Virus record (IMG/VR): IMGVR_UViG_3300032116_001300
Location: 1-23,962 of that record
DNA length: 23,962 bases
Origin: a virus
Reading direction: 5' to 3' (one strand)
The translations under genes were made by a program, and so were the position numbers. The notes below the pieces were generated by a model. That model searched no databases, had not been told where the DNA came from, and worked only from the letters and a program-made list of their open reading frames with translations. Below are positions 17,730-23,568 of the stretch, piece after piece (the stretch's first letter is position 1; every line of letters begins with the position of its first letter).

Positions 17730-18021
17730 TGGTATGGGTCCACGACAATCGATGGCTGTTGAAATTTTAGATACAGTTCGATTTGGTGGTCTTGATAAGA
17801 TCAAAGGTGCTAATGGTTATGCCAAGAAAAAACTTGACAACGGTGATGCTTATGTGATACCGTTTGGACTCAGTAAAAATATTTTTGGTGCTGTGGTAAT
17901 TTCTGCTCCAAAAAGGCTATATATTACATACAGATTGAATAGTAAAGAAAAGACTGTGCGAATGACTAACGCATGGGAAGTGAAACGATTCTTGGTGAAG
18001 CAATTCATTCAGAATATGTAA
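17719..18021 (+). CDS. phage hypothetical protein (100 aa)
   Basis: A 100-aa protein (MYIDGMGPRQSMAVEILDTV; KKKLDNGDAYVIPFG; RLYITYRLNSKEKTVRMTN; EVKRFLVKQFIQNM). ATG 17719 is preceded by AAGGAA at the right spacing; the frame upstream from GTG 17671 lies in the previous gene. A beta-rich fold with a C-terminal helix; no family recognised. Last gene before the GC-rich RNA-like region. Confidence 0.65.
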   Translation: MYIDGMGPRQSMAVEILDTVRFGGLDKIKGANGYAKKKLDNGDAYVIPFGLSKNIFGAVVISAPKRLYITYRLNSKEKTVRMTNAWEVKRFLVKQFIQNM

Positions 18022-18165
18022 AGAACGTTCCGGGTTAGTCTCTGGATACTGTGACCCACAGGATGAGAAGTAGTGTGACAGCTACGGGTGGTAGTCTTTA
18101 AACCGAAAGGCCGCTGGCAATGCGAGAACGGAATCTGTCGGGGAGCGGGTGGAAGGAACGTGTGA
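18022..18165 (+). ncRNA. GC-rich structured RNA candidate of unknown class
   Basis: No reading frame of useful length. G+C is clearly higher than in the genes around it and the plus strand is G-rich. A 7-bp closing stem pairs ACGTTCC (18025-18031) with GGAACGT (18155-18161). Inside, GGGT/ACCC (18032-18035 / 18054-18057) encloses AGT/ACT; GTAG (18070-18073) pairs with CTAC (18082-18085); GTCTTT (18094-18099) pairs with AAAGGC (18106-18111) allowing G-U. This resembles a multibranched RNA domain. It matches no RNA class I can name: no RNase P, tmRNA, group I intron core or hammerhead motif is visible. The 85 nt up to the MazG gene add a TATGA/TCATA hairpin around 18170-18184. Confidence 0.5.
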
Positions 18166-18250
18166 TGGGTATGATAGCGTCATATCTTGATGTTCTATAA
18201 TTACCGCCGAGATTCGCAGAGCATTTTATGTATTGAGAAAAGGTTAGATA

Positions 18251-18532
18251 ATGAATAGTGTTGAAAAAGAAGTTTTACTCATTGCACAAGAAGAATGTGC
18301 CGAAGTGACACAGGCAATCAGTAAAGTTTTTAGATTTGGTTTAGATGGTGAACACAATGGTGCATCTAATCGTGAACGATTGACAGAAGAAGTTGGTGAT
18401 TTATTTTGTATGATTCAGTTGATGATTGAAACAGGTATCATTAGCATTGATGAAGTAGATAGAGCATCCGCAAACAAGAAAGCAAAACTCCAGAAATGGT
18501 CTAATATTTTTAACGAAGAAACAGTAAACTAA
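18251..18532 (+). CDS. MazG-like nucleoside triphosphate pyrophosphohydrolase
   Basis: A 93-aa single-domain all-alpha NTP pyrophosphatase. Metal-binding motifs: QEECAEV (Glu14, Glu15, Glu18) and TEEVGDLFCM (Glu47, Asp50), the EExxE...ExxD signature of MazG/dUTPase-2 folds. Such enzymes hydrolyse (d)NTPs to monophosphates; phage versions have been proposed to remove modified nucleotides or tune the nucleotide pool, and a role with ppGpp has been suggested but is disputed. It stands alone between two RNA-like elements and just before the tRNA array. GAAAAGG ribosome-binding region. No clear promoter directly upstream. Confidence 0.85.
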   Translation: MNSVEKEVLLIAQEECAEVTQAISKVFRFGLDGEHNGASNRERLTEEVGDLFCMIQLMIETGIISIDEVDRASANKKAKLQKWSNIFNEETVN

Positions 18533-18576
18533 AATGAATTTAATATCGAAACTCTCAACAAGAAATTATATGCCGA

Positions 18577-18716
18577 TTACGTGGCAGAGTATTTCTCGCT
18601 CAGAGAAATCCGATTGCCACGCACCAGTGATGGGGGCTTGTTATACCTGAGGACCATAAGTCCAAAGAGAATACAAAGACAAGCCCCCTAGAGACTGAAA
18701 ACTCTAGGGGGTTTTT
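18577..18716 (+). ncRNA. bistable RNA: alternative antiterminator and terminator
   Basis: Three strong stems. (1) CGTGGCA (18580-18586) / TGCCACG (18615-18621) capped by ATTTCTC (18591-18597) / GAGAAAT (18603-18609). (2) GGGGGCTTGT (18632-18641) / ACAAGCCCCC (18679-18688), perfect 10 bp, enclosing a GGAC/GTCC hairpin. (3) The terminator stem at 18684-18711. Stems 2 and 3 share the five C at 18684-18688, so they exclude each other. This is the arrangement of an attenuator or riboswitch expression platform. Downstream lies the tRNA array. It could also be a stand-alone small RNA ending at the terminator. Confidence 0.6.
18684..18716 (+). terminator. strong intrinsic terminator before the tRNA array
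   Basis: Perfect 10-bp stem CCCCCTAGAG (18684-18693) / CTCTAGGGGG (18702-18711), 8-nt loop, then five T. Separates the MazG transcript from the tRNA operon. Confidence 0.95.
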
Positions 18717-18732
18717 CTTTGTGTTGTATGAA

Positions 18733-18783
18733 AACAACATCTATGAAAATAGTTGTTGACAGTCTTTCCGATTGTGTTATACT
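18733..18783 (+). promoter_or_regulatory. tRNA-array promoter with shared inverted repeat (copy 4 of 4)
   Basis: TTGACA at 18756-18761 and TATACT at 18778-18783, 16-nt spacer. AACAAC (18733-18738) / GTTGTT (18752-18757), 13-nt gap. AAAATAGTTGTTGAC at 18746-18760. Start near 18790. Confidence 0.88.
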
Positions 18784-18789
18784 TCATAT

Positions 18790-18832
18790 GTTGAGTCGAT
18801 AGAGGTTCAACAAAACGTTCTTTAACAATTTG
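18790..18832 (+). promoter_or_regulatory. boxB/boxA-like antitermination leader of the tRNA array
   Basis: A hairpin GTTGAGTC (18790-18797) / GGTTCAAC (18804-18811, two G-U pairs) with 6-nt loop, then GTTCTTTAACAATTTG at 18817-18832. The latter shares TCTTTAACAATTT with the boxA of E. coli rRNA leaders, which binds NusB/S10 and protects untranslated RNA from Rho. Order hairpin then boxA also matches rRNA leaders. Confidence 0.75.
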
Positions 18833-18850
18833 CATCCATATTTTTTATGA

Positions 18851-18924
18851 TGGGGATTAGTGTAATGGTAGCACAACGGATTTTGATTCCGTTGGCACAA
18901 GTTCGATTCTTGTATCCCCTGCCA
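18851..18924 (+). tRNA. tRNA-Gln (TTG)
   Basis: Acceptor TGGGGAT/ATCCCCT (U1-U72 mismatch, in keeping with the weak first pair of tRNA-Gln), anticodon stem ACGGA/TCCGT, loop TTTTGAT, G73, CCA encoded. First gene of the array. Confidence 0.93.
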
Positions 18925-18927
18925 AAT

Positions 18928-19002
18928 GGTGACATAGCACAGCGGTAGTGCAATTGCTTCATACGCAATCGGTCGTTGGTTCAAATCCAACTGTCACCAC
19001 CA
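18928..19002 (+). tRNA. tRNA-Met or tRNA-Ile2 (CAT), first
   Basis: Acceptor GGTGACA/TGTCACC, A73, CCA encoded. Anticodon stem ATTGC/GCAAT with loop TTCATAC. G1-C72 is paired, so it is not an initiator. C at position 38 is unusual. With CAT, either elongator Met or a lysidine-modified Ile2 reading ATA is possible; a second CAT tRNA at 20114 makes a division of roles likely. Confidence 0.9.
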
Positions 19003-19006
19003 ATTT

Positions 19007-19081
19007 GGGGGTATAACTCAACGGCTAGAGTAGCTGGCTTTTAACCAGTAAATCCGAGTTCGATTCTCGGTGCCCCTACCA
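19007..19081 (+). tRNA. tRNA-Lys (TTT)
   Basis: Acceptor GGGGGTA/TGCCCCT with G-U pairs at 1:72 and 6:67, anticodon stem GCTGG/CCAGT, loop CTTTTAA, CCA encoded. Confidence 0.93.
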
Positions 19082-19093
19082 GTTTTCTTTGGT

Positions 19094-19169
19094 GTGACCT
19101 TAGTGTTAGCGGTCAGCACCTCGGATTGTGATTCCGATAGGATGGGTTCAAATCCCATAGGTCACCCCA
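19094..19169 (+). tRNA. tRNA-His (GTG)
   Basis: Acceptor GTGACCT/AGGTCAC, C73, CCA encoded; anticodon stem TCGGA/TCCGA, loop TTGTGAT. The base before G1 is T, not the G-1 normally encoded for bacterial tRNA-His and required by HisRS (see findings). Confidence 0.9.
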
Positions 19170-19178
19170 AAGAAAATT

Positions 19179-19253
19179 GCCTTGTTAACTCAGCGGTAGA
19201 GTGTCTCCCTTACAAGGAGAAGGTCGGCGGTTCAATCCCGTCACAAGGTACCA
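19179..19253 (+). tRNA. tRNA-Val (TAC)
   Basis: Acceptor GCCTTGT/ACAAGGT (G-U at 1:72), anticodon stem TCTCC/GGAGA, loop CTTACAA, A73, CCA encoded. Confidence 0.93.
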
Positions 19254-19262
19254 ACAAGATAG

Positions 19263-19336
19263 TCCCGGATAGTTAAATGGTATAACGGTCGCTTGATAAG
19301 CGATTATCGAAAGTTCAATTCTTTCTCTGGGAACCA
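19263..19336 (+). tRNA. tRNA-Ile (GAT)
   Basis: Acceptor TCCCGGA/TCTGGGA, anticodon stem GTCGC/GCGAT, loop TTGATAA, A73, CCA encoded. Confidence 0.92.
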
Positions 19337-19339
19337 AGT

Positions 19340-19416
19340 GCCCTCTTACTCCAATTGGTAGAGAGGACGGTCTTAGAAGCCGTAAAGTCTCAGTTCGAAT
19401 CTGAGAGAGGGCACCA
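19340..19416 (+). tRNA. tRNA with Leu anticodon (TAG) on a class I body
   Basis: Acceptor GCCCTCT/AGAGGGC, anticodon stem ACGGT/GCCGT, loop CTTAGAA giving anticodon TAG (reads CUA/CUN), T-stem CTCAG/CTGAG, A73, CCA encoded. The variable loop is only about five nt (AAAGT), whereas bacterial tRNA-Leu has a long variable arm, as does the Leu(TAA) gene at 22336 in this same array. The D arm is also irregular, with a 3-bp CTC/GAG stem. Confidence 0.85.
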
Positions 19417-19427
19417 AATGTTTTTAT

Positions 19428-19502
19428 GCGCCTTTAGTAAAATGGATATTACAGTAGGCTACGAACCTACGAGTGGGAGTTCGATTCTCTCAGGGCGCAC
19501 CA
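19428..19502 (+). tRNA. tRNA-Arg (ACG)
   Basis: Acceptor GCGCCTT/AGGGCGC, anticodon stem GTAGG/CCTAC, loop CTACGAA, A73, CCA encoded. The ACG anticodon needs host TadA to form inosine for full CGN reading. Confidence 0.93.
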
Positions 19503-19508
19503 AGTTAT

Positions 19509-19598
19509 GGAAGTGTGGTCGAGTCTGGTTTATGGCAACAGTCTTGAAAACTGTCGAACAGAAATGTTCCGTGAGTTCGAATCTCACCGCTTCCGCCA
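19509..19598 (+). tRNA. tRNA-Ser (TGA)
   Basis: Class II with long variable arm, 90 nt. Acceptor GGAAGTG/CGCTTCC, anticodon stem ACAGT/ACTGT, loop CTTGAAA, G73, CCA encoded. Confidence 0.93.
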
Positions 19599-19605
19599 AA
19601 ATTAT

Positions 19606-19693
19606 AGAGAGTTGGGTGAGTGGTTAAACCAGCAGTTTGCTAAACTGTCATTGCGAAAGCGGTGCATGAGTTCGAATCTCATACTCTCTGCCA
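19606..19693 (+). tRNA. tRNA-Ser (GCT)
   Basis: Class II, 88 nt. Acceptor AGAGAGT/ACTCTCT, anticodon stem GCAGT/ACTGT, loop TTGCTAA, G73, CCA encoded. Confidence 0.93.
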
Positions 19694-19702
19694 AAAATGT
19701 TG

Positions 19703-19731
19703 TTGACAGAAAATGTTTAGAGTGTTATACT
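19703..19731 (+). promoter_or_regulatory. internal sigma70 promoter in the tRNA array
   Basis: TTGACA at 19703-19708 and TATACT at 19726-19731, 17-nt spacer, preceded by GTTGTTGAC but without the AACAAC arm. Start near 19738, 17 nt before tRNA-Glu. Confidence 0.85.
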
Positions 19732-19754
19732 CTATTCATAGATTAAAAAAGTAT

Positions 19755-19830
19755 GCACGATTCGTCTATCGGTTTAGGACACCGCCCTTTCACGGCGGGA
19801 AGAGGGGTTCGATTCCCCTATCGTGTACCA
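19755..19830 (+). tRNA. tRNA-Glu (TTC)
   Basis: Acceptor GCACGAT/ATCGTGT (G-U at 1:72), anticodon stem CCGCC/GGCGG, loop CTTTCAC, A73, CCA encoded. Confidence 0.93.
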
Positions 19831-19845
19831 TGAGTTTAGTATTTT

Positions 19846-19930
19846 GGAGATACGGCAAAGTTGGAGAGTTGCGGCAGACTGTAAATCTGTTCTTTCGGGT
19901 GAGTAGGTTCGAATCTTACTGTCTCCACCA
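19846..19930 (+). tRNA. tRNA-Tyr (GTA)
   Basis: Class II, 85 nt. Acceptor GGAGATA/TGTCTCC, anticodon stem GCAGA/TCTGT, loop CTGTAAA, A73, CCA encoded. Confidence 0.93.
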
Positions 19931-19939
19931 AGTTTTTTA

Positions 19940-20014
19940 GGTGCGTTCGTATAGAGGTTATTACTGCGGATTGTCTATCCGCTTACGGGAGTTCGATTCT
20001 CCCACGCATCGCCA
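19940..20014 (+). tRNA. tRNA-Asp (GTC)
   Basis: Acceptor GGTGCGT/ACGCATC, anticodon stem GCGGA/TCCGC, loop TTGTCTA, G73 as expected for Asp, CCA encoded. Confidence 0.93.
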
Positions 20015-20023
20015 AGTTTTTAT

Positions 20024-20100
20024 GTGAGTGTGCCGCTGAATGGTTAGGCTACGGATTGCAAATCCGTTCTATGCAGGTTCGAGTCCTGTCACTCACTCCA
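20024..20100 (+). tRNA. tRNA-Cys (GCA)
   Basis: Acceptor GTGAGTG/CACTCAC, anticodon stem ACGGA/TCCGT, loop TTGCAAA, T73 as expected for Cys, CCA encoded. Confidence 0.93.
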
Positions 20101-20113
20101 AGATATATAATAT

Positions 20114-20187
20114 AGCGGGTAGGGCGGTCACCACACCGGTCTCATAAGCCAGGTGCATCGTTGGTTCGAATCCAACACCCGCTTCCA
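20114..20187 (+). tRNA. tRNA-Met-like (CAT), second
   Basis: Acceptor AGCGGGT/ACCCGCT, T73, CCA encoded; loop CTCATAA typical of Met. The anticodon stem CCGGT/GCCAG has a C-A mismatch, the D arm is irregular, and T73 is unusual for Met or Ile2 (normally A73). A1-U72 pairing argues against a normal initiator. Charging identity is uncertain. Confidence 0.82.
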
Positions 20188-20194
20188 ATTTTAT

Positions 20195-20273
20195 TCCGAG
20201 AAACCCGAGCAAGGTGCATGGGCGTGACTGTTAATCACTGGTTAGAAGAGTTCGATCCTCTTACTCGGAGCCA
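20195..20273 (+). tRNA. tRNA-Asn (GTT)
   Basis: Acceptor TCCGAGA/ACTCGGA with A-A mismatch at 7:66, D stem CCC/GGG with an enlarged loop, anticodon loop CTGTTAA, G73 as expected for Asn, CCA encoded. At 79 nt it is long for class I, because of the D loop. Confidence 0.85.
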
Positions 20274-20287
20274 TTACAAAGAAGAAT

Positions 20288-21031
20288 ATGAAAAAAATAA
20301 TCTTATCTCTAATCCTATTGACTTGTTTGAGTGCTAATGCTATTACAGTTTACGCATACAACATCACAAAACAATATCCGATTGTTGATGCTGAAATTGA
20401 TAAAATGAGACCAATAGCAAGCATTACGAAACTGATGACTGCATTGGTGTTACTTGAGAGTGGAGTTTCATTGGATGAGAAAGTTCCATATAAAGGAATG
20501 TTCTATTCACACAAGAAATTCACTAGAGAAGAATTGTTGAATTTAATGTTAGTCAAAAGTGACAACAGAGCCGCAGAAGCATTAGCAGAAAGCATGGGTG
20601 GTAAATTGTGGACAGTTTATCAAATGAATAAACGTGCAATTATGCTTCAAATGTACGATACAAAATTTGATGATGTATCTGGTCTGAGTGCAAAGAACAT
20701 TAGTACCGCAAAAGATTTAGTTATCATGTTGACAGATGCGTACAGGCATGATAAGATACGTGATATATCTGCATTGAGTAGATACGATTTGAAAGTCGTA
20801 GATAAGAAGAATAGAGAGAAACACATTCCAGTCAATAACACTAACGTGAAGTTGATGAACAAATATGATATCATTGAAGTATCTAAAACTGGCACAACGA
20901 ATGCGGCTGGTAAGTGTCTTGTGATGATCGTACATAAGAATGGTGAACAGTATGCTATTGTTATTCTCGGAGGCACAACAAGAGCCGATGTGGATAACTT
21001 AGCAAAGAATATAATGGAGAAGATAATTTAA
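20288..21031 (+). CDS. D-alanyl-D-alanine carboxypeptidase/endopeptidase (peptidase S11)
   Basis: A 247-aa penicillin-binding-protein-type serine peptidase with a signal peptide (residues 1-18, cleavage after SANA), so it acts on peptidoglycan in the periplasm. All three active-site motifs are present: SITK (Ser45, Lys48), SDN (91-93) and KTG (200-202). The single-domain size without a C-terminal membrane anchor is nearest PBP7/DacC-type DD-endo/carboxypeptidases. It lies between tRNA-Asn and tRNA-Thr, inside the tRNA array, with only a weak AAGAAG ribosome-binding site. Base composition looks like its phage neighbours. It may trim peptides to alter cross-linking during infection or help lysis. 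Whether it is an endopeptidase or carboxypeptidase cannot be decided here. Confidence 0.88.
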   Translation: MKKIILSLILLTCLSANAITVYAYNITKQYPIVDAEIDKMRPIASITKLMTALVLLESGVSLDEKVPYKGMFYSHKKFTREELLNLMLVKSDNRAAEALAESMGGKLWTVYQMNKRAIMLQMYDTKFDDVSGLSAKNISTAKDLVIMLTDAYRHDKIRDISALSRYDLKVVDKKNREKHIPVNNTNVKLMNKYDIIEVSKTGTTNAAGKCLVMIVHKNGEQYAIVILGGTTRADVDNLAKNIMEKII

Positions 21032-21037
21032 GTTTTA

Positions 21038-21111
21038 GCCCTATTAGTATAATGGCATTACACCTGTTTTGTAATCAGGTTACGGCAGTTCGATTCTGTC
21101 ATGGGGCACCA
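21038..21111 (+). tRNA. tRNA-Thr (TGT)
   Basis: Acceptor GCCCTAT/ATGGGGC, anticodon loop TTTGTAA, stem CCTGT/TCAGG with a U-U mismatch next to the loop, A73, CCA encoded. Confidence 0.9.
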
Positions 21112-21121
21112 GTATAAATAT

Positions 21122-21198
<77 letters not shown>

Positions 21199-21209
21199 AA
21201 TATAATAAT

Positions 21210-21284
21210 GGGGGATTGGCGTAATTGGGAACGCAATTGCTTTGCAAGCAATAGTCAAGAGTTCGAATCTCTTATTCTCCACCA
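21210..21284 (+). tRNA. tRNA-Ala (TGC)
   Basis: Acceptor GGGGGAT/ATTCTCC with G-U at 3:70, the main identity element for alanine; anticodon stem ATTGC/GCAAT, loop TTTGCAA, A73, CCA encoded. Confidence 0.93.
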
Positions 21285-21305
21285 TATAAGAAATGAAAGT
21301 ATAGA

Positions 21306-21752
21306 ATGTTATATCTAATAAAATCGTTTACTGATAGTGTAATGAGTATGTTAAGTGAAGACCCTGTGCGTCCTCATATTCCACATGTTGACAGAGTTGG
21401 TGACAACAAAGATATCTTTGTGTTACGTGACGAAAATGAACAAGTGAAAGCAATCACATGCGTAAGTTATCAAACAGAAATTCCAACAAAAGAAACTGAA
21501 TTGTTTCAGATTTCATCTGAACCGATTGTTGCAATATTTTATACCATTTGGAGTTATGCTCCAGGTGCAGGTCGCACATTAATTTTTGATGCTGTTAAAC
21601 ACATCAAAGAAAACAAACCAGAGATTCAAAGATACGTTACGCTGAGTCCTAAGACTGAAATGGCTAAACGTTTTCATATGCGTAATGGTGCAGTTGTTTT
21701 TAGAGAGAATGACGATACAGTTAACTACGAATATCATAGGGTGATTTTATGA
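21306..21752 (+). CDS. GNAT-fold acetyltransferase-like protein
   Basis: A 148-aa protein with a GNAT-like order: N-terminal helix, strand KDIFVLRDENEQVKAITCVS, then IVAIFYTIWSYAPGAGRTLI leading into the helix FDAVKHIKENKP; PGAGRTL resembles the acetyl-CoA pyrophosphate loop (Q/RxxGxG/A). The end, LSPKTEMAKRFHMRNGAVVF, is the usual 'h-x-x-N/K-x-x-A-x-x-h-h-x-x-x-G' GNAT helix. Such proteins recur in cyanophage-like genomes. Substrate unknown. It lies within the tRNA array; AATGAAAG is the only ribosome-binding candidate. Overlaps the next gene as ATGA. Confidence 0.65.
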   Translation: MLYLIKSFTDSVMSMLSEDPVRPHIPHVDRVGDNKDIFVLRDENEQVKAITCVSYQTEIPTKETELFQISSEPIVAIFYTIWSYAPGAGRTLIFDAVKHIKENKPEIQRYVTLSPKTEMAKRFHMRNGAVVFRENDDTVNYEYHRVIL

Positions 21753-22051
21753 GTGATGGTGGAAAAGGAAGCGCACCACGTCCATTTAGCGTAAGTCAGG
21801 AAGAATACGCAAATCGATTTGATGCCATCTTTAAAAAGAATATCAAATCGGCTGAAGAAATTCATTCCGATAAAGGATATGAATTGGGAACCAAAGAAGG
21901 CTATGAAGCATTCAATAAGAAACGCCAAGATGCGTTAGACAAGTTACATACTGCTAATGAAGAATTAGGATTGTATGATGATGAGTATGATGCAATTCAT
22001 AAGTACAATGAAGAAACCAAAGAAGTTAAGTTCAGACAATTAAACAAATAA
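21749..22051 (+). CDS. conserved phage hypothetical protein (100 aa)
   Basis: A 100-aa charged helical protein. Its start, MSDGGKGSAPRPFSVSQEEY then ANRFDAIF, is a conserved opening I associate with small phage proteins (GGKGS-x-PRP-x-S-V). The rest is Lys/Glu-rich with likely coiled-coil character (KRQDALDKLHTANEEL). Function unknown. ATGA-coupled to the GNAT-like gene; the stop is 1 nt before tRNA-Trp. Confidence 0.7.
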   Translation: MSDGGKGSAPRPFSVSQEEYANRFDAIFKKNIKSAEEIHSDKGYELGTKEGYEAFNKKRQDALDKLHTANEELGLYDDEYDAIHKYNEETKEVKFRQLNK

Positions 22052-22052
22052 T

Positions 22053-22126
22053 TACTCACTGGTGTAATGGCAGCATCACGGTCTCCAAAACCGTTGGTCG
22101 GGGTTCGAGTCCCTGGTGGGTAGCCA
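22053..22126 (+). tRNA. tRNA-Trp (CCA)
   Basis: Acceptor TACTCAC/GTGGGTA, anticodon stem ACGGT/ACCGT, loop CTCCAAA, G73 as expected for Trp, CCA encoded. Confidence 0.92.
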
Positions 22127-22133
22127 AAAAAAT

Positions 22134-22207
22134 GCGGGGTTCGTATAGTGGTAATACCTTAGCCTTCCAAGCTAATGCTGAGAGTTCGATTCTCTTACCC
22201 CGCTCCA
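22134..22207 (+). tRNA. tRNA-Gly (TCC)
   Basis: Acceptor GCGGGGT/ACCCCGC, anticodon stem TTAGC/GCTAA, loop CTTCCAA, T73 as expected for Gly, CCA encoded. Confidence 0.93.
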
Positions 22208-22208
22208 C

Positions 22209-22237
22209 TTGACAAGATAGAAAATGTAGACTATACT
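22209..22237 (+). promoter_or_regulatory. internal sigma70 promoter before the last tRNAs
   Basis: TTGACA at 22209-22214 and TATACT at 22232-22237, 17-nt spacer. Start near 22244. It would transcribe tRNA-Arg, tRNA-Leu and the heptose module behind them, as no terminator follows. Confidence 0.85.
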
Positions 22238-22256
22238 ACGTGTATAGAAATTAATT

Positions 22257-22331
22257 CTGGCGTTCGTTCAACGGATAGGACATGATTCTTCTAAAGTCAT
22301 TATGGGGGTTCGATTCCCTCACGCCGGACCA
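22257..22331 (+). tRNA. tRNA-Arg (TCT)
   Basis: Acceptor CTGGCGT/ACGCCGG, anticodon stem TGATT/AGTCA, loop CTTCTAA, A73, CCA encoded. Reads AGA/AGG. Confidence 0.91.
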
Positions 22332-22335
22332 GTTA

Positions 22336-22422
22336 GCGAGTATGGTGAAATTGGTAGACACAAGAGACTTAAAATCTCTCGCTTTAAAAGGTGTGCCGGT
22401 TCGAGTCCGGCTACTCGCACCA
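22336..22422 (+). tRNA. tRNA-Leu (TAA)
   Basis: Class II with the long variable arm usual for leucine, 87 nt. Acceptor GCGAGTA/TACTCGC, anticodon stem AGAGA/TCTCT, loop CTTAAAA, A73, CCA encoded. Last tRNA; the heptose module begins 11 nt later. Confidence 0.94.
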
Positions 22423-22433
22423 TATATAAATGT

Positions 22434-22835
22434 ATGATGAAAATTATAGTAAACGGATCATTTGATATTGTACATCTAGGACACTTGCGATTATTGCAGT
22501 ATGCAAAATCTTATCCTAGCGCATACGTGTACGTGCTTACTGATAGCGACAGACGCATCAAAGAATTAAAAGGTGCAGATAGACCAATCAATACCGAGTA
22601 TGAACGTACATCATTATTATTCGCACTTAAATACGTAGATAGAGTAGATGTGTTTGATACCGATGAAGAATTGATAAACTTGATTCGTGACTATAAGCCT
22701 GATATAATGGTTAAAGGAAGTGACTACAGAAACACACCGATCATTGGTGCCGAATTCTGTAAAGAAATTAAATTTTATGACAGACTTGAACAGTACTCAA
22801 CCACAAACAAAATTCAAGATATTGCTACTCGGTGA
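22434..22835 (+). CDS. HldE C-terminal-type sugar-phosphate nucleotidyltransferase
   Basis: A 133-aa nucleotidyltransferase matching the adenylyltransferase half of HldE/RfaE, which joins heptose-1-phosphate to AMP. Motifs: GSFDIVHLGH (the HxGH signature), IKELKGADRPINTEYER, VDVFDTDEELINLI, PDIMVKGSDYR, and EQYSTTNKIQ at the end; all are in the order of the HldE family. Start is ATG 22434 or ATG 22437 (MMKIIVNG). The frame is open further upstream only through the tRNA-Leu gene. Its last 59 nt overlap the kinase gene in another frame. In the usual HldE the two activities are fused with the kinase first; here they are separate and in reverse order. Confidence 0.87.
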   Translation: MMKIIVNGSFDIVHLGHLRLLQYAKSYPSAYVYVLTDSDRRIKELKGADRPINTEYERTSLLFALKYVDRVDVFDTDEELINLIRDYKPDIMVKGSDYRNTPIIGAEFCKEIKFYDRLEQYSTTNKIQDIATR

Positions 22836-23568
22836 TTCTTGCATAGATGTTTATCAATATGGAACAATCGACAGATTGAGTCCAGAAGCACCAATTCCCG
22901 TAATCAAACTAACACGAAAAGAAACCAGACTTGGTATGGCACGAAATGTCCATAGCAATCTGTACAAACTCGGCTGTGACACAACGATAATTTCAAATCA
23001 AGCGGCAGGTGTCAATGGCGAACCAAGAATCACAAAGACTAGAATCATAGACGAAAAGTCTGGATATCAAATCGTCAGAATAGATGAAGAGCCAAAGATA
23101 GAGCCGTGGAATGGAATTGTAGATACCGAAGGTTATGATGCTGTTGTTATATCTGATTACAACAAAGGCTTTTTAACTTATGAGCATATCCAAAATCTGA
23201 TTCACGATTTTAATGGACCAGTTTTTATCGATACGAAGAAAAGAAACTTAGAAGCATTCAATGGTGCTTTTGTTAAAATCAACGAAAAAGAATTTGAAGC
23301 GGCTGAGTCATATGCATGGGATATGATTGTAACATTGGGTGCCGATGGCGCAATGCTACGTAGTGAACATGTCAATACAAATTACCCAACAAAAAAAGTT
23401 GATGTTCTTGATGTGTGTGGTGCAGGCGATACATTCTTAGCCGCATTAGCTTATCAATATCTTGTGACGAATAGCATTGATGATGCAATCAAATTTGCAA
23501 ATAAAGCATCGTCAATTACAGTACAGCATGTGGGTAATTATGCACCCACACTAAAGGAGATACAATGA
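22777..23568 (+). CDS. HldE N-terminal-type sugar kinase (PfkB family)
   Basis: A 263-aa PfkB/ribokinase-type kinase matching the heptose-7-phosphate kinase half of HldE: ILLLGDSCIDVYQYGTIDRL then SPEAPIPVIKLTRKETRLGM and ARNVHSNLYKLGC at the N-terminus, DYNKGFL (about 132-138), and VCGAGDTFLA with the catalytic Asp and anion hole in the last third. Somewhat shorter than the usual domain of about 310-320 aa. I chose ATG 22777; the longer frame from GTG 22720 adds residues unlike the family. Operon with the nucleotidyltransferase before and the cupin after (4-nt overlap). Product with its partner would be an ADP-heptose or a similar nucleotide sugar. Confidence 0.85.
   Translation: MTDLNSTQPQTKFKILLLGDSCIDVYQYGTIDRLSPEAPIPVIKLTRKETRLGMARNVHSNLYKLGCDTTIISNQAAGVNGEPRITKTRIIDEKSGYQIVRIDEEPKIEPWNGIVDTEGYDAVVISDYNKGFLTYEHIQNLIHDFNGPVFIDTKKRNLEAFNGAFVKINEKEFEAAESYAWDMIVTLGADGAMLRSEHVNTNYPTKKVDVLDVCGAGDTFLAALAYQYLVTNSIDDAIKFANKASSITVQHVGNYAPTLKEIQ

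Follow-up and report, generated by a model that had tools for sequence, protein, structure and literature searches.

A probable transcription attenuator before phage tRNA arrays with a leader frame that samples almost all amino acids

We analyzed a viral DNA stretch of 23,962 bases (IMG/VR record IMGVR_UViG_3300032116_001300; this whole stretch is hereafter called the window), in which a short leader frame and two competing RNA stems lie between a mazG-like gene and a tRNA array (Table 1). Judging from the sequences of the window and its relatives, this element is probably a transcription attenuator of the ribosome-mediated kind, with a leader in which almost all amino acids are sampled. With less confidence, we also lean toward the broader view that large phages possess a universal aminoacyl-tRNA sensor, a mini-gene of 26-57 codons that would read nearly all tRNA isoacceptors, would turn on their large tRNA set via attenuation whenever virtually any tRNA in the cell is short, and would have been kept or re-made through complete turnover of both stems and peptide. 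In the proposed mechanism, RNA polymerase would transcribe the leader frame with a ribosome behind it. When charged tRNAs are all available, the ribosome would reach the stop codon, over or just past the 5' strand of the antiterminator, and would block the pairing of this strand, so that the terminator would form and transcription would end before the array. When one of nearly all aminoacyl-tRNAs is scarce, for which host tRNA decay, anticodon nucleases and starvation are the proposed causes, the ribosome would stall earlier, the antiterminator would form, and the polymerase would continue through the boxA region into the phage tRNA set. The anatomy, spread, covariation, coding conservation and amino acid sampling were observed in these loci; from them we infer that the ribosome stalls, in which direction the switch responds, and that tRNA loss plays a part during infection.

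Leader, switch and tRNA array in the window

Table 1. Features around the leader and the tRNA array of the window
Feature	Position	Strand	Basis
mazG-like pyrophosphohydrolase gene	18251..18532	+	ORF; PHROG 4856, E 6.6e-25
Leader frame, 38 codons plus TGA, MNLISKLSTRNYMPITWQSISRSEKSDCHAPVMGACYT	18534..18650	+	ATG 18534, TGA 18648-18650
Small hairpin in leader, TGCC...GGCA	18571..18586	+	scan match
Larger leader hairpin, GTGGCA...ATTTCTC/GAGAAAT...TGCCAC	18580..18621	+	MFE fold
Antiterminator 5' strand GGGGGCTTGT, within the last leader codons	18632..18641	+	sequence, helix scan, folds
Antiterminator 3' strand ACAAGCCCCC	18679..18688	+	sequence, helix scan, folds
Intrinsic terminator, stem 18684-18693/18702-18711 plus T-rich tail	18684..18720	+	sequence and terminator scan
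Sigma70-type promoter TTGACA-16-TATACT for the tRNA array	18756..18783	+	scan, 11/12 positions
Short hairpin 5' of boxA (putative)	18790..18811	+	read from sequence
boxA-like GTTCTTTAACAATTTGC	18817..18833	+	read from sequence
tRNA array	18851..22422	+	21 genes by ARAGORN, 1 more by Rfam only

The leader starts one base 3' of the mazG-like stop codon, and its product MNLISKLSTRNYMPITWQSISRSEKSDCHAPVMGACYT contains 19 of the 20 amino acids (Phe is missing) and 23 of 24 tRNA classes. The coordinates that a preliminary description had given for the stems and the frame are exact in the sequence, and the terminator was recovered at its position by a terminator scan. The run CCCCC is common to the antiterminator 3' strand and the base of the terminator 5' arm. 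The small hairpin within the leader is a candidate polymerase pause hairpin, a role suggested by its place in the sequence, and hairpins resembling it were seen by eye in relatives as well; the larger hairpin, which has one strand in common with the small one, was seen by eye nowhere beyond the clade of the window and the relatives nearest to it. Both the promoter and the boxA-like element lie between the terminator and the first tRNA (18851). The preliminary description, whose account of the switch is supported by our analysis, had missed these two elements downstream of the terminator. The short hairpin before boxA occupies what we take to be the place of boxB in rRNA leaders.

In the array, the tRNA found only by Rfam lies at 20024-20097, with an anticodon read as Cys; a candidate Asn-type sequence follows it, by reading by eye only. 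Neither ARAGORN nor Rfam found a tRNA-Phe in the array. A peptidase gene of PHROG 5304, which presumably resembles D-alanyl-D-alanine carboxypeptidases, is located within the array at 20288-21031, and a heptose-phosphate adenylyltransferase-like frame (PHROG 7878), then by eye a kinase-like frame, occupy 22422-23568. A GC-rich noncoding stretch precedes mazG at 18022-18250, with about 85-96% identity to close relatives and 70-79% to L012, L016 and L017; in L016 and L017 its counterpart lies elsewhere, downstream of mazG. This stretch is possibly a mobile structured RNA; it has no Rfam match, and its fold z is only -0.97.

The stretch from leader to terminator folds at -62.6 kcal/mol versus a shuffle mean of -39.4 kcal/mol (z -5.5, 0/200 shuffles). 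In folds of the nascent chain with no ribosome, the antiterminator remains most stable until the chain reaches 18707-18709, when the 3' strand of the terminator is nearly complete. A ribosome footprint at the stop codon (18633-18661) prevents the antiterminator, and the terminator is seen from 18707 on; a ribosome stalled near codon 16 preserves the antiterminator to 18711. In these models, the nascent folds before full length behave as attenuation requires. At full length (end at or beyond 18714, folded from 18480), on the other hand, the terminator is favoured under each of the three conditions tried, which counts against the attenuator reading and means that the antiterminator could act only kinetically. 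When 18534-18716 was folded with either stem forced, the antiterminator (-58.8) and the terminator (-58.5) were almost equal.

Leaders of relatives and their amino acid content

The leader and both stems occur in the same order in the mazG relatives L001-L008, L010-L013 and L015-L017, some of whose contigs end before the tRNAs, and the same arrangement was found in very different phages fetched by other proteins, by patterns, or by a scan for the promoter plus boxA. Taken as sequence evidence, these relatives point to an attenuator rather than a coincidence. In the window's clade the leader follows mazG. A -10-like element lies within 45 nt upstream of 23 of 37 leaders versus 21 of 183 long frames, and leaders may thus possess their own promoter. 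The motif TATATAATA was counted 28 times versus once in one simulated sequence set (23 loci). It occurs before leaders, single tRNAs and frames (L410, L414, L423, L460, L484, L514 and others), and the window carries it also at 20104-20112. We dropped TATATAATA and TATATAGA as a late promoter class, since several copies resemble ordinary sigma70 -10 boxes.

Among the first 34 leaders, all 20 amino acids are present in 24, 19 in five, 18 in four and 17 in one; with three further leaders read from fetched arrays, all 20 are present in 27 of 37 leaders (32-57 codons long), versus 0/37 for each of the +1, +2 and antisense frames. The mean is 19.57 amino acids per leader versus 16.05 (+1), 16.46 (+2) and 16.70 (antisense), and about 16 in coding windows of the same length from the same loci. 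The chance of holding all 20 ranges from 0/4000 to 0.0095 per leader, with 0.043 and 0.051 for the two longest, under a null of random same-length windows from 148 frames of at least 150 codons in the same loci (shadow frames not filtered), the leaders having been picked by hand on frame geometry and start codon and their completeness having been noticed before the formal test. As these P values are per leader and many leaders are related, we grouped them, using a crude 50% score, into 23 clusters at about 50% identity, the representatives of 17 of which hold all 20 amino acids. His occurs once and only once in every one of the 37 leaders, and none of them is without Trp. Of two leaders read subsequently, L447 has 19 amino acids (His missing) and L510 has 16 (Ala, Cys, Asp and Arg missing), so that with these two all 20 are found in 27 of 39.

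Sampling is also visible at the level of tRNA classes, where Leu, Ser, Arg and Ile were counted as two codon boxes each and the initiator was excluded, giving 24 in total. All 24 are sampled by nine of the 37 leaders and 23 by another 14 (mean z 3.0). Both boxes are present for Leu in 28 leaders (expected 20.9), Ser in 35 (28.5), Arg in 29 (18.2) and Ile in 24 (10.1). For the window's leader, 23 of 24 classes has P 0/3000, and 19 of 20 amino acids alone P 0.025. Counting against a sampler are the internal Met, which is barely enriched (28/37 leaders, expected 25.0), and the ten incomplete leaders of 37, with L203 and L460 falling within the class-level null (P 0.35 and 0.19). The preliminary description had regarded the peptide as the speculative part; this judgment is reversed by a leader frame that is conserved and samples nearly all amino acids. 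Its remark that the leader has no run of a single amino acid is true, and what it overlooked is the sampling of nearly all of them instead.

The own tails of leaders complete their own prefixes better than the tails of other clusters do (19.36 versus 18.49, 0/5000 permutations; P 0.007 with a 6-nt margin), the prefixes holding on average 17.0 amino acids with a 12-nt margin and 18.4 with a 6-nt margin over 22 clusters. A stalled ribosome would start covering the 5' strand at codons closer than 13 nt upstream of it, and the amino acids that occur only in such near-strand codons (E in 10 clusters, V in nine, G, D, W and M in seven each) count against a simple stall model; in the window these are Val and Gly. 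Upstream of these codons the excess is smaller (mean z 1.9, 35 leaders), and the window's 13-nt prefix, with 15 kinds in 27 codons, is not above chance (null 13.9, P 0.36). Completeness seems from these sequences to be selected across the whole frame, which a simple stall model explains only in part.

In a first set of 13 lineages, 10 have the stop codon 3-6 nt past the 5' strand, the exceptions being L203 (+13), L042 (+14) and L156 (-5). Among 27 elements of a second set, 25 of them with a frame, it lies between -1 and +25 nt from the strand. In five of these 25 it is 19-25 nt past the strand, where a ribosome at the stop would not cover the strand, and this counts against the stall model. 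The suggestion of the preliminary description that translation to the stop would mask the strand accordingly fits the geometry of the first set, and that of the second set less well. We rejected a precise arrest-peptide model because the spacing between W and the stop is, by eye, not constant.

As for the arrays, ARAGORN found all 20 isotypes encoded in 13 of 20 fetched regions. Four regions are without one isotype (L522 Phe, L527 Asn, L529 Tyr, L539 Asn), L523 is without Cys, Phe and Asn (at the place of its missing Cys the window has a Cys-type tRNA by Rfam), the array of L541 is cut by the contig end, and L538, which holds the array of L504, has 11 tRNAs of 10 isotypes in a region that continues for 11 kb. 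The L504 leader has 19 amino acids despite this 11-tRNA array, a mismatch that counts against a sampler. Across the wider clade of the window, Phe in the leader and tRNA-Phe in the array are concordant in 11 of the 14 loci that have at least 11 tRNAs, those with 1-4 tRNAs being excluded: both are present in L002, L003, L012, L013, L016, L017, L134 and L136, neither in the window/L001 (counted once), L006 and L101, and they disagree in L010, L015 and L139. This agreement is suggestive only. The arrays of L534 and L540 contain a tRNA with anticodon CTA, called Pyl by ARAGORN, which is perhaps an amber suppressor.

An attenuator coupled to translation that reports only general capacity, such as ribosome supply or initiation, with the variety of amino acids as a by-product, would have the same stems and stop geometry, would not need special codons, and would suit leader and array contents that do not match one to one. 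However, we consider this reading unlikely in view of sampling that is specific to the leader frame, the single His in every leader, and the enrichment of both boxes of split families.

Competing stems, promoters and coding selection

In 295 loci we identified 228 distinct terminators, and 32 of these terminators have a tRNA less than 500 nt downstream. A competing helix of -12 kcal/mol or better accompanies 30 of these 32 versus 26 of the 196 others, and one of -15 or better 27 of 32 versus six of 196, where the 32 differ in sequence, many come from close relatives, and some loci were fetched by patterns containing these stems; the protein-based fetches and the promoter plus boxA scan made no use of them. 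The mean helix near tRNAs is -19.6 (-4.0 with the upstream sequence shuffled) versus -4.7 at other terminators (-4.8 shuffled). The competing stems, which the preliminary description had called plain, are beyond chance, both in the fold of the window and in this comparison. Three of the 30 helix-bearing terminators (L240, L241 and L243) belong to another type without a leader. In these loci a terminator-like hairpin lies 5 nt before a tRNA-Arg, downstream of a promoter, and a possible competing strand lies upstream of the hairpin with no leader frame. L486 has the terminator and lacks the leader.

The promoter plus boxA scan matched at least 104 distinct sites in at least 117 loci. Among the matches listed there are 37 array heads, of which 36 have 150 nt or more of upstream sequence; a terminator lies within 350 nt of 27 of these 36, and a competing helix is present at 24, or at 19 of 31 once the five contigs already sampled (L083, L086, L110, L132 and L481) are removed. 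Among the matches listed, sites inside arrays have a terminator in 5/37 and a competing helix in 3/37 cases, and sites without a downstream tRNA in 3/30 and 1/30; the sole tRNA-less site with a helix is L454, whose locus ends soon after the site. Two more heads, L447 and L510, have by eye a helix with a mismatch or bulge that falls outside the scan rules.

The stem sequences vary between lineages and complementarity is kept. The strand set of the window type (5' antiterminator/shared/3' terminator) is GGGGGCTTGT/ACAAGCCCCCTAGAG/CTCTAGGGGG, and the sets in relatives are GGGGGTC/GACCCCCAAC/GTTGGGGG, GGGGACTT/AAGTCCCCTAGA/TCTAGGGG, GAGGGTTTTGG/CCAAAACCCTCGA/TCGAGGG, GAGGCTTTTTG/CAAAAAGCCTCAAGA/TCTTGAGGC and GGGTTAGTTAAAA/TTTTAACTAACCCAGG/CCTGGGT; strand pairs from the boxA scan include GGGTCTTGT/ACAAGACCC, AGGGGTTTGTG/CACAAACCCCT and GGGGATTTTG/CAAAATCCCC. 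Both stems are therefore conserved with coordinated strand changes, the comparison of relatives that the preliminary description had asked for. In L135 an insertion shifts the leader frame, yet the GGGGGCTTG strand and its partner are kept in another reading frame, which indicates that the stem is selected as RNA.

The promoter TTGACA-16-TATACT lies between the terminator and the first tRNA also in L001, L010 and L012, and many arrays carry a promoter after the attenuator, which counts against dependence of the array on the attenuator. Sigma70-type promoters of the same kind are found in the window at 19703-19731 and 22209-22237. No sigma70-like match was found in the 64 nt that separate the terminator from the first tRNA in L002, L003, L006 and L013. 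On the 150-kb contig of L006, no exact TTGACA-TATACT lies between the attenuator and the array head; ten such promoters occur on one strand at 33-61 kb, and the nearest one upstream is about 2.6 kb from boxA. The first tRNAs there would probably depend on readthrough or on another promoter type. Readthrough would add to a second source of tRNAs, except perhaps in L002, L003, L006 and L013. The promoter after the terminator in the window and many relatives is what one would expect if this were an ordinary operon end, at which the terminator insulates the array, the array's own promoter and boxA are its sole driver, and the helix is incidental or serves mRNA stability. That explanation appears improbable, since few other terminators have such a helix, since it persists although its sequence has turned over completely, and since the four loci above, L006 with its long contig in particular, have the attenuator without such a promoter match.

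The boxA-like GTTCTTTAACAATTTGC, which we take to resemble the boxA of E. coli rRNA operons, was found as an exact 17-mer no more than 900 nt upstream of a 16S-type motif in five of 80 bacterial loci read, out of 110 stretches matched in all, a count without a chance control; the five are Bowmanella, Neptunicella, two Aliiglaciecola and Inhella. The window carries before its tRNAs a boxA-like sequence as it occurs before 16S genes, one of the features expected of a boxA leader of the rrn type. The motif TCTTTAAMAATTTG is present in 29 of 35 related records at 0-2 copies per record, and its occurrence suggests rRNA-type antitermination of phage tRNA arrays.

In a set that excludes L135 and L139 and keeps only leaders with GAC, nine distinct leaders from the clade of the window have a pN/pS ratio of 0.30, where mazG in these loci has 0.21; the ratio is 0.39 in a second clade, of eight leaders, and 0.50 across 13 leaders including distant ones. 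Leader indels in relatives are in frame. These values point to purifying selection on the frame as protein, and bear out the conservation of the 38-codon frame for which the preliminary description had called; a leader frame that overlaps the antiterminator and is under coding selection is a defining trait of ribosome-mediated attenuators. Purifying selection, together with motifs such as SRTP that are common to some lineages, would also be expected if the frame encoded a functional small phage protein and the RNA structure merely ended the message. We regard this as very improbable: the leader peptides have no convincing match in Pfam or PHROG (best E 0.09), the 23 clusters have little sequence in common and amino acid completeness in common, and the last codons follow the stem. 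In cultured phages, tblastn found no match for the leaders of the window, L042, L203 and L415, and only chance-level matches (E at least 2) for those of L534 and L484.

Window 18001-18850 has no DNA similarity to cultured phages at distant sensitivity, and the whole window gave only short matches, which are tRNA-sized among the best 20 of 37 records. One exonuclease protein places the Methylophilales phages Melnitz (Kyanoviridae, 58% identity) closest among cultured phages; in Melnitz-2 there are four tRNA matches and nothing comparable to the array. We scanned five cultured phages (Aeromonas AsFcp_2, Cronobacter CR3, Xanthomonas XacN1, Agrobacterium Atu_ph07 and Vibrio KVP40), which were chosen from the window's tRNA matches, plus KVP40, and are not a sample. 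A terminator that has both a competing helix and a tRNA less than 500 nt downstream is present only in Atu_ph07 (TCCGGTTCCG/CGGAACCGGG in L546, -21.2 kcal/mol, with tRNA-Ala 119 nt away); the one terminator near a tRNA in KVP40 lacks a competing helix, and AsFcp_2, CR3 and XacN1 have no terminator within that distance. The element of Atu_ph07, around L546 4000-4470, includes, after AAAGGA, a 42-codon frame whose end lies 23 nt beyond the 5' strand and which contains 18 amino acids (without Cys and Leu), with one His and one Trp, a number not exceptional alone; 17 tRNAs follow, one of them Leu. By its sequence, Atu_ph07 appears to carry an element similar to the window's. None of the five has a small frame with all 20 amino acids close before tRNAs. 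Frames with 19 lie 148 nt (AsFcp_2) and 133 nt (KVP40) before tRNAs, where the scan found no terminator with competing helix.

Significance and comparison with known systems

A T-box (tRNA-binding) or ligand-binding riboswitch, which could also place a terminator/antiterminator pair before tRNA genes, has next to no probability, since cmscan of the whole window at gathering scores returned tRNA only and the best other Rfam match is the terminator part of His_leader, at 28.5 bits versus a threshold of 49. Like a T-box, the phage element has a terminator/antiterminator pair that would respond to tRNA charging; unlike a T-box, it uses a leader frame, not a tRNA-binding RNA, and has no Rfam T-box match.

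How to explain the tRNA arrays of phages has been a matter of debate for decades. Host defences that deplete tRNAs, against which phage tRNAs may act (van den Berg 2023, PMC10264068), would make it useful for a phage to sense such a loss; that work concerns anticodon loops, and its abstract describes no regulation. In the main text of PMC12482277, on a phage with 26 tRNAs, the terms promoter, terminator, leader and attenuat- are absent. Neither attenuation of a phage tRNA array nor a leader with nearly all amino acids is described in the titles and abstracts found, which are mostly from open literature. If the attenuator reading is true, some phages gauge tRNA shortage during infection and respond to it, the tRNA-loss hypothesis becomes directly testable, and the leader is a natural reporter of total tRNA charging.

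Leader-peptide attenuation itself is well known, and several amino acids are sampled by the thr and ilvGMEDA attenuators; we know of no earlier attenuator with a leader cognate to essentially all amino acids. Elf and Ehrenberg (2005, PMC1183508) describe that basal readthrough can be lowered by placing the stop codon late, within the antiterminator strand, and the kinetic scheme given there for trp and his matches the nascent folds predicted for the window. Like rrn boxA leaders, the phage loci have a promoter, a short hairpin and a boxA-like TCTTTAA[C/A]AATTTG before untranslated RNA genes; unlike in rrn leaders, the boxA-like element lies in a phage, before tRNAs and downstream of an attenuator, with a putative role for Nus factors. 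As in the trp and his attenuators, a leader frame is combined with an antiterminator and a terminator that have a strand in common. However, the leaders of amino-acid operons repeat one or a few amino acids and control biosynthetic operons, whereas the phage leaders hold nearly all 20 and precede a tRNA array.
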